In this document: positions 43,994 through 53,390 of the stretch, piece by piece | Numbering within the stretch: the first letter of the stretch is position 1 | Layout: every line of letters begins with the position of its first letter | Position numbers and translations under genes: made by a program | Origin: Aeromicrobium sp. Root472D3 | Lineage (GTDB): Bacteria; Actinomycetota; Actinomycetes; Propionibacteriales; Nocardioidaceae | Length of the DNA stretch: 64,000 bases | Assembly: GCF_001426485.1 (NCBI RefSeq) | Contig: NZ_LMET01000001.1 | Span: 1,510,363 to 1,574,362, forward strand | Direction: 5' to 3' | Notes under the pieces: generated by a model | Told to the model about the DNA's origin: nothing | What the model saw: the letters and a program-made list of their open reading frames with translations, nothing else | Database searches by the model: none

Positions 43994-44152
43994 ATGGCGG
44001 AGACCTGGAGTGGCGAGTTCTACTGCGTCAAGTGCAAGGAGAAGCGCGAGACCACCGGAGAGGTGCAGGTCAGCGAGAAGGGCACCCGGATGGCCAAGGG
44101 CATCTGCCCGGTGTGCAGCACCAAGCTCAACCGCATCCTCGGCAAGGCCTGA
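43994..44152 (+). CDS. DUF5679 zinc-ribbon protein
   Basis: A 52-residue protein starting MAETWSGEFYC. Two CxxC pairs (Cys11/Cys14 in CVKC and Cys38/Cys41 in CPVC) make a zinc ribbon. Between them come Lys/Arg-rich charged strands. The sequence is the DUF5679 pattern found next to ABC1/TOMM-like genes in actinobacteria. A strong TAGGAGGC site lies upstream. Function unknown; nucleic-acid binding is possible. Confidence 0.9.
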   Translation: MAETWSGEFYCVKCKEKRETTGEVQVSEKGTRMAKGICPVCSTKLNRILGKA

Positions 44153-44229: not shown

Positions 44230-44381
44230 TTGTCCACGCTTGTGGATAAGACTGGGGACAAGCTGTGGGGAACGCCGAGCGAGCGTGTGGACGGGGCCGT
44301 GCACAACATGTGGACAGCCTGGGGACGAATGCATCGAAGGTCCTCTGACCAGCGCTGATGCCTGCATGAGCCTGTGGACAA
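44230..44381. promoter_or_regulatory. cluster of DnaA-box-like sites
   Basis: In 152 bp of gene-free DNA I count: TTGTCCACG (44230-44238), TTATCCACA reverse (44241-44249, perfect), TTGTCCCCA reverse (44253-44261), TTCCCCACA reverse (44264-44272), CCGTCCACA reverse (44286-44294), CTGTCCACA reverse (44309-44317), TCGTCCCCA reverse (from 44320) and TTGTCCACA reverse (44373-44381, perfect actinobacterial box). Four are 0-1 mismatches from the consensus. No dnaA or dnaN is nearby. Confidence 0.65.
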
Positions 44382-44401
44382 CATCAGCTCGACCGGACCG
44401 G

Positions 44402-44413
44402 TAGATTGCTGGT
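44402..44413 (+). promoter_or_regulatory. leaderless -10 box
   Basis: TAGATT at 44402-44407, six bases before GTG at 44414 and just downstream of the DnaA-box cluster. Confidence 0.5.
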
Positions 44414-44905
44414 GTGGGAGACATCGAGATCCGTCGAAGCGCCCGTCGCAAGCGCACCGTGCGCGCGTACCGCGACGGTGACACGACCATCGTCCTGATG
44501 CCGGCGAATCTGCCCCGGGCGGTCGAGGAGGAGCACGTGCGCACCCTCGTGGCCCGGCTCGAACGACGCGAGCAGCGGGTGCGGCCCGGCGACGACGAGC
44601 TCCTCGAGCGTGCTGCCGTGCTGTCGCGGAAGTGGCTCGGTGGCGAGGCCGTCCCGGCGTCGGTGCGGTGGGTCACCACGATGGAGAAGCGCTGGGGGTC
44701 GTGCACGAGCGACGACCGCACGATCCGTCTGTCGCACCGTCTCCAGGGCATGCCGACCTACGTCGTGGACTACGTGCTGCTGCACGAGCTGGCGCACCTG
44801 ATCGAGCCGAACCACGGCGCACGGTTCTGGTCGCTCGTCGACGCCCACCCGGAGGCGACGAAGGCTAAGGGATTTCTCGAAGGCGTCTCGTGGCAGCAGC
44901 GATGA
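44414..44905 (+). CDS. YgjP-like M48-type metallopeptidase
   Basis: 163 residues, GTG start. Zincin site HELAH (His124, Glu125, His128) with a third ligand at His134 (EPNHGARFW), preceded by the family string TMEKRWGSCTSDDRTIRLSHRL (split as KRWGSCTSDD and TIRLSHRL). This is the YgjP/DUF45 (WLM-like) group. Role unknown. The gene lies downstream of the DnaA-box cluster and overlaps the convergent NUDIX gene by 41 bases. Confidence 0.9.
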   Translation: MGDIEIRRSARRKRTVRAYRDGDTTIVLMPANLPRAVEEEHVRTLVARLERREQRVRPGDDELLERAAVLSRKWLGGEAVPASVRWVTTMEKRWGSCTSDDRTIRLSHRLQGMPTYVVDYVLLHELAHLIEPNHGARFWSLVDAHPEATKAKGFLEGVSWQQR

Positions 44906-53313: not shown

Positions 53314-53390
53314 CGCGGGGTGGAGCAGCTCGGTAGCTCGCTGGGCTCATAACCCAGAGGTCACAGGTTCAAATCCTGTCCCCGCTACCA
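53314..53390 (+). tRNA. initiator tRNA-Met (CAT anticodon), CCA encoded
   Basis: A 77-base cloverleaf. Acceptor strand CGCGGGG pairs with CCCCGCT except C1-U72, the unpaired 1-72 end typical of initiators. Anticodon stem CTGGG/CCCAG shows the three G-C pairs of initiator tRNA, loop CTCATAA, anticodon CAT at 53348-53350, T-arm ACAGGTTCAAATCCTGT, and encoded CCA at the end. D-arm GAGCAGCTCGGTAGCTC. Confidence 0.96.

Follow-up and report, generated by a model that had tools for sequence, protein, structure and literature searches.

The locus between DUF5679 and ygjP

The window, a stretch of 64,000 nucleotides (C1:1510363-1574362), comes from the 3.71-Mb, four-contig genome of an Aeromicrobium of the family Nocardioidaceae. 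A cluster of DnaA-box-like nonamers at 44230-44381 is located between a DUF5679 gene and a YgjP-like metallopeptidase gene, upstream of the latter, in agreement with the gene-free interval described in the first-pass annotation; the two mechanical open reading frames that cross 44230-44381 carry no Pfam family. The nearest named relative of the window YgjP is that of Aeromicrobium endophyticum (81% identity). Of the other neighbours that had been named, the window encodes UvrD2, with UvrD and HRDC domains, and a UvrD/PD-(D/E)XK frame that fits one AdnAB subunit. dnaA, reported as absent from the vicinity, is indeed remote, at C1:509 kb, approximately 1.05 Mb from the cluster. A tRNA gene (Rfam RF00005) is found at 53314-53387 of the window.

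Specifically, nine nonamers in the cluster match TTRTCCACA with at most two mismatches, two of them perfect, three with one mismatch and four with two. The cluster had been recognised correctly but with eight boxes; the two perfect boxes, at 44241 and 44373, hold with zero mismatches, whereas three boxes (44230, 44253 and 44309) rather than two differ by a single base. Eight of the nine boxes point in the same direction (minus strand), and the box at 44230, on the plus strand, stands head-to-head with the one at 44241. The start-to-start spacings are 11, 12, 11, 22, 12, 11, 11 and 53 bp, and the starts follow a register of approximately 11 bp (44241, 44253, 44264, a gap, 44286, 44298, 44309 and 44320), with the box at 44373 detached. 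The features are listed below; slots are numbered relative to TGACC, and fill counts refer to the ygjP-side or dnaB-side copies described further on.

43994-44152, plus strand: DUF5679 gene, flanking the array side (PF18930, E 1.9e-15)
44230-44238, plus strand: DnaA box TTGTCCACG, slot -116, one mismatch, head-to-head partner of the 44241 box
44241-44249, minus strand: DnaA box TTATCCACA, slot -105, perfect; slot filled in 44/45 ygjP copies
44253-44261, minus strand: DnaA box TTGTCCCCA, slot -93, one mismatch; slot filled in 32/45 ygjP copies
44264-44272, minus strand: weak DnaA box TTCCCCACA, slot -82, two mismatches; slot filled in 22/45 ygjP copies
44273-44285, no strand: empty slot at about -71; a box in only 6/45 ygjP and 4/28 dnaB copies
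44282-44389, plus strand: match to sequence model R1, 61.9 bits, this copy being itself among the 34 training sequences
44286-44294, minus strand: weak DnaA box CCGTCCACA, slot -60, two mismatches; slot filled in 37/45 ygjP copies
44298-44306, minus strand: weak DnaA box TTGTGCACG, slot -48/-49, two mismatches; slot filled in 24/45 ygjP copies
44309-44317, minus strand: DnaA box CTGTCCACA, slot -37, one mismatch; slot filled in 27/45 ygjP copies
44320-44328, minus strand: weak DnaA box TCGTCCCCA, slot -26, two mismatches; slot filled in only 8/45 ygjP copies
44346-44353, plus strand: TGACCAGC (consensus TGACCTGC), site of a putative factor, register position 0, 19 bp before the last box core
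44373-44381, minus strand: detached DnaA box TTGTCCACA, slot +27, perfect; conserved, yet part of the alignment anchor
44402-44407, plus strand: probable -10 element TAGATT of ygjP, as read from the sequence, 6 bases before GTG
44414-44905, plus strand: YgjP-like metallopeptidase gene, flanking the module side (PF01863, E 1.1e-24; SprT-like PF10263, E 2.1e-6)

Perfect TTRTCCACA sites are rare, with only eight in the whole 3.71-Mb genome, two of which fall within 44230-44381. Nine boxes fall within the densest 152-base stretch of the window, against a maximum of five in 400 simulated sequences (200 first-order and 200 third-order Markov). Across the whole window, the eight boxes with at most one mismatch compare with 5.58 expected, a number that 19 of 100 shuffles reached and that is not unusual. 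Because the total for the window is ordinary and the 152-base density extreme, the clustering is the non-random part.

Conservation of the array upstream of ygjP

YgjP was detected in 42 of the 49 genomes of the same genus. In all 30 Aeromicrobium loci examined, the window's own included, at least five boxes lie in the 330 bases upstream of ygjP, which answers the question whether relatives keep the cluster at the same gene junction. The array usually starts with TTGTCCAC-GCC-TGTGGATAAC or a close variant, and it is kept in some loci where the DUF5679 gene is inverted. The first-pass annotation had been prepared to give up its reading for boxes that were unconserved and at chance density; they are conserved in relatives and denser than in the simulations.

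Outside the genus the distribution is patchy. A first distant set gave an array at ygjP in a Propionibacteriales MAG and in Geodermatophilus, and none at ygjP in Embleya (two), Knoellia, Phycicoccus and Yinghuangia. Among 80 further ygjP regions from the family and the class, the array occurs in more than ten families and is missing in others. A second motif, TGACCTGC, precedes the last TGTGGA by 19 bp and is often followed by an A-rich stretch. The composite motif scores at least 12 of 14 in 44 of 118 ygjP-upstream regions (a set in which L010 and L062 are the same species), and the best of 118 mononucleotide-shuffled regions scores 11. In family f15, a TGACC module lies close to ygjP without a box array (L159, L136, L223 and L225); L138 and L140 resemble these loci but score 11, equal to the best shuffled region. 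Additionally, a recurrent hairpin-like sequence of the CGCCTTCCCCTTGCG / CCCGGGGGCTTCG type, for which no Rfam family was found, is seen upstream of the array in L141, L145, L150 and L161, from several families.

A second copy upstream of dnaB

The same genome contains a second copy at C1:466555-466664 (L092:1056-1165). It lies upstream of dnaB, 42 kb from dnaA, and has a divergent MATE-like gene as its neighbour; DnaB was read from the open reading frame and borne out by a protein match. The bare pattern TGACCWGC-N19-TGTGGA has matches in 87 of 295 genomes of the class, at 106 places against approximately 75 for the reversed control (counted by eye), a modest enrichment. Many single matches are accordingly due to chance. 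Among 20 places picked for their likeness to the consensus, 14 are upstream of dnaB, four beside ygjP and two beside DUF5679.

Specificity resides in the whole of a sequence-only model, R1, rather than in this bare pattern. R1 was built from 34 ygjP-side copies, taken among the best-scoring of the 118 upstream regions, and its E-values come from a shortened calibration. At E ≤ 0.01, R1 has a match in 244 of 295 Actinomycetes genomes and none in the other 51, about a sixth. The best 150 places (E ≤ 5.7e-8) come from 131 of the 295 genomes and fall into two sites: 95 are upstream of dnaB, none of which was used in training, 51 are near and upstream of ygjP, including 16 training copies, and four are in the ygjP neighbourhood of genomes without a detectable ygjP. 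None of these 150 lies outside the dnaB site and the ygjP site or its neighbourhood. Places were sorted by dnaB and ygjP coordinates, those for dnaB being part of the listed dnaB rows and those for ygjP in G345 and G381 being derived from fetched regions; the 34 places left after this sorting were settled from fetched sequence in groups of 8, 16, 4 and 6. Distances to dnaB start at the aligned start of the DnaB fragment, not at the start codon.

Nineteen genomes carry one dnaB and one ygjP place among the best 150, and they span nine families (f1, f10, f12, f15, f19, f20, f29, f32 and f34). Genomes of g38, which we take to be Streptomyces, carry the dnaB copy. Approximately 24-35% of the chromosome length separates ygjP from the dnaB copy in five genomes of the family that consist of a single contig (G007, G011, G017, G019 and G071).

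In a sample of the phylum, R1 matches 23 of 246 genomes at E ≤ 1e-4; together with the 51 class genomes that lack a match, this means that not every genome has the element. Beyond the class, eight genomes from families f51, f62 and f78 carry an R1 match (E 1.8e-9 to 5.5e-5), next to Zincin_2 in six of them and next to ygjP in two. Family f5, which we take to be Mycobacteriaceae, gives only weak R1 matches (best 2.0e-5), and its YgjP matches have E-values of 4.5e-4 or more. Of four f5 stretches read upstream of dnaB, three keep box intervals of 76, 33 and 11 bp, equivalent to +27, -49, -82 and -93, without TGACCTGC, and the fourth (L293), which was anchored manually, agrees with the register in part only.

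A rigid register common to both loci

The dnaB and ygjP copies share one register. Slots -105, -93, -82, -60, -49 and -37 are filled in 12, 11, 18, 14, 18 and 23 of 28 dnaB copies and in 44, 32, 22, 37, 24 and 27 of 45 ygjP copies, respectively, when boxes with up to two mismatches are counted within 1 bp of the slot. At 5 bp off the register, no box occurs at any slot in these 28 dnaB and 45 ygjP copies. At both loci, few copies have a box at slot -71. Aeromicrobium is strongly represented in these sets, which were chosen to contain the element, such that the counts describe the register and not its prevalence; L264, L266, L267, L268 and L271 (dnaB) and L063 and L067 (ygjP), with anchor scores below 12, were left out.

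Inverted boxes recur at two positions in a minority of copies, again with up to two mismatches allowed. The partner at -116 is present in 11/45 ygjP and 8/28 dnaB copies and recurs as a head-to-head start in Aeromicrobium relatives, and a partner at +15, absent from the window copy, is present in 13/45 ygjP and 8/28 dnaB copies. Exact TGACC occurs in 36/45 ygjP and 23/28 dnaB copies, although it helped to anchor the alignment. The +27 box and TGACC together defined the anchor, and conservation at +27 is therefore not independent evidence. The mean A+T content is 0.64-0.65 in the stretch after the detached box versus 0.37-0.38 over the element.

Relation to neighbouring genes

Among the best 150 places, the element points away from dnaB in 70 of 70 and toward ygjP in 46 of 46 that were classified by coordinates. 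The distance between the R1 match and ygjP ranges from 25 to 1163 bp. In five genomes of g7 (Nocardioides-like), a long frame separates the element from ygjP, at a distance of 1.06-1.16 kb; in the one identified case it encodes a PHP-domain protein, and three other frames, probably not the true ones, gave no family. Four f28 genomes keep the element without a detectable YgjP (best E 0.047); its neighbours are NUDIX, Zincin_2 and PDZ genes in L263 and L273 and Zincin_2 in L277, and in L261 only the PDZ gene of this neighbourhood was matched. In the six Zincin_2-side copies outside the class, the module faces the 3' end of that gene, and copies whose module adjoins the 3' end of NUDIX also occur. 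With distance, orientation and neighbours all variable, no gene keeps a constant promoter-like relation to the element of the kind expected of a DnaA-regulated promoter, which would hold a fixed position to the gene that it controls.

These data bear on the proposal that the locus is a DnaA-controlled promoter, in which the array and the detached box would allow DnaA to turn ygjP, and dnaB at the second locus, up or down, thereby tying a SprT-like protease and a helicase to the replication cycle. A -10 similar to TAGATT is found in many Aeromicrobium relatives, and the ygjP transcript is probably leaderless with TAGATT as its -10; the detached box at 44373-44381 overlaps the corresponding inferred -35. 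The stable neighbourhoods at both loci also speak for such a promoter, as does the f15 module that sits close to ygjP without an array. In fact, since both loci stay linked to particular neighbourhoods, cis-regulation would explain this linkage more simply than a free-standing locus. The opposite orientations toward ygjP and dnaB and the wide range of distances to ygjP argue against it. As a general explanation the ygjP promoter, which the first-pass annotation had suggested, fails, because the element is kept without ygjP, with another gene in between, or abutting the 3' end of a neighbour; surviving a change of neighbour and reaching beyond the class, it is not simply a ygjP promoter. We therefore regard the promoter proposal as possible but rather unlikely as the main function, and retain it as a possible added role, given the detached box over the inferred -35. 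Control of DnaA and an effect on ygjP or dnaB transcription may also go together.

Comparison with the origin and with RNA elements

The dnaA-dnaN stretch of the same genome contains oriC (L091:3239-3321), with DnaA boxes and, after them, a DnaA-trio-like run, TACTACGACTACTACTC. R1 lists no match in this stretch, even up to E 10, and no trio-like run was seen when the element at 44230-44381 was inspected by eye. The GC skew profiled over 18 kb (36-54 kb of the window) has no clear switch. The phased DnaA boxes, the A+T-rich stretch after the detached box and the position of one copy beside dnaB would be in keeping with a secondary, backup or ancestral replication origin, or with a helicase-loading or restart site. 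The trio-like run seen only at oriC and the lack of an R1 match in the dnaA-dnaN stretch speak against this, and the local skew lends it no support; the suggestion of an integrated or ancestral origin is not supported, and we consider any origin-like function very unlikely.

RNA elements were considered separately. In eight loci and in the window array alike, every Rfam family stays below its gathering score, and a permissive search of six loci returned a single miRNA match at chance level.

Other box groups and known DnaA-binding loci

Further groups of boxes were noted. Those at L002:1478-1530 and L093:1023-1150 have in common a ACACCCGTGTA-like string, which one of them carries the other way round; the L002 group adjoins an open reading frame that we read as CrgA, and the M. 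tuberculosis DnaA site at Rv0010c-Rv0011c is likewise adjacent to crgA. Five boxes lie within approximately 70 bp at L094:812-884 (C1:2525.3 kb), beside a DivIVA-like open reading frame. The arrangement of the groups in the window genome (L093 and L094) is unlike that of the element.

The dnaB copy lies at the same gene junction as a mapped DnaA site of M. tuberculosis and M. smegmatis (Hicks et al. 2020, PMC7738170). In the parts of that report drawn on here, in vitro binding of mycobacterial DnaA upstream of dnaB is reported, M. smegmatis has the homologous site by ChIP-seq, and the five DnaA sites have homologues in M. smegmatis, with no ygjP-side site among the five peaks. At this very junction, three f5 genomes have retained the spacing +27/-49/-82/-93. 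The same parts of PMC7738170 give a peak, and describe no phased architecture, TGACCTGC module or ygjP-side twin.

This junction also weighs on whether the 9-mers are sites of another protein with a DnaA-box-like motif. Four boxes out of nine depart from TTRTCCACA at two positions, and several of these may be weak; TGACCTGC, moreover, suggests a further factor at the locus. Set against this, two of the only eight perfect TTRTCCACA sites of the genome are found here, and the twin occupies the junction of the mycobacterial DnaA site upstream of dnaB. We hence judge a different binding protein very unlikely.

Among characterised loci, datA and DARS of E. coli are the closest in design. At datA, as the sections of PMC5742627 used here describe it, the essential boxes share one direction and bind ATP-DnaA head-to-tail, and spacing matters. 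The E. coli locus promotes hydrolysis of DnaA-bound ATP, and the DARS loci promote release of ADP from DnaA. The present element is likewise a non-coding cluster with boxes in one direction (eight of nine here, with the same register in other copies), but it has more boxes, phased at approximately 11 bp, and occurs at two loci; datA has an IHF site between its boxes, whereas here another conserved motif, TGACCTGC, is found. The DARS1 and DARS2 cores have a fixed common spacing and one inverted box (PMC5742627 and PMC4585315, in the portions relied on). Similarly, the dnaB and ygjP copies are two loci that share one register. The DARS core consists of three boxes, of which box I faces the other way from II and III, whereas the window element is a longer array; an inverted pair occupies -116/-105 in the window copy, and a minority of copies has one at +15/+27. 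Same-direction phased boxes fit head-to-tail DnaA assembly as described for datA, and the inverted pair fits head-to-head contact as described for DARS.

Extra-oriC clusters of DnaA boxes in S. coelicolor (Smulczyk-Krawczyszyn 2006) and B. subtilis, which restrain initiation and whose deletion causes early or additional initiation, resemble the element in being dense and away from oriC, but the portions of PMC4585315 and PMC5295017 on which we draw describe no conserved register for them. In the mainly open-access literature that we searched, no description of a phased array common to dnaB and ygjP was found.

A proposed DnaA-assembly locus

Taken together, the conserved architecture, its recurrence upstream of dnaB, and the persistence of the element across changes of neighbour lead us to favour, with somewhat better than even confidence, the interpretation that 44230-44381 is a non-coding DnaA-assembly locus that controls DnaA availability or nucleotide state and is one of two copies in the genome. 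In our best reading, the locus would combine datA-like same-direction boxes and DARS-like inverted pairs with a putative TGACCTGC-binding factor. The datA/DARS-like part of the first-pass annotation is therefore the best supported as a way of working, and its activity is predicted from the sequence. What the sequences show is the architecture, its rigid register, the confinement of the strong matches to two sites and the survival of the element when neighbours change; the mycobacterial work shows DnaA binding upstream of dnaB; and we infer DnaA binding at the window copy, the additional factor and the feedback function.

In the proposed mechanism, DnaA would load side by side and in one direction onto the boxes phased at approximately 11 bp, and an inverted head-to-head pair would close off the oligomer at one end or at both. 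A partner that acts by bending or bridging is suggested by the conservation of TGACCTGC and by the A+T-rich stretch: a putative TGACCTGC-binding protein, together with the A+T-rich stretch after the last box, would position the detached box against the array, by analogy with IHF or Fis at datA and DARS2. The resulting complex may control the amount or the nucleotide form of DnaA that is free for oriC, and because the two loci would be copied at different times, they could exert feedback on initiation.

A more far-reaching version, tentative and in our view unlikely to hold in full, is that Actinomycetota possess a two-locus DnaA switch on one ancient nucleoprotein scaffold, with an architectural protein bound at TGACCTGC, which times initiation. 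If so, the dnaB copy near the origin would be duplicated soon after initiation and the DUF5679/ygjP/Zincin_2 copy, farther along the arm, later, and the switch would tune DnaA nucleotide state or availability, possibly in place of control of the Hda or SeqA type. Actinobacteria are not known to have a recognised Hda.

The restraint and reactivation of DnaA are poorly understood in actinobacteria, which include antibiotic producers, soil bacteria and mycobacteria. The element looks like an overlooked replication control element that has the same layout at two sites in many of them. Its fixed DnaA register of approximately 11 bp at two sites, across the class and partly beyond, names two concrete loci, predicts a partner protein with a stated site, TGACCTGC, and offers a framework for the mycobacterial DnaA peak upstream of dnaB.
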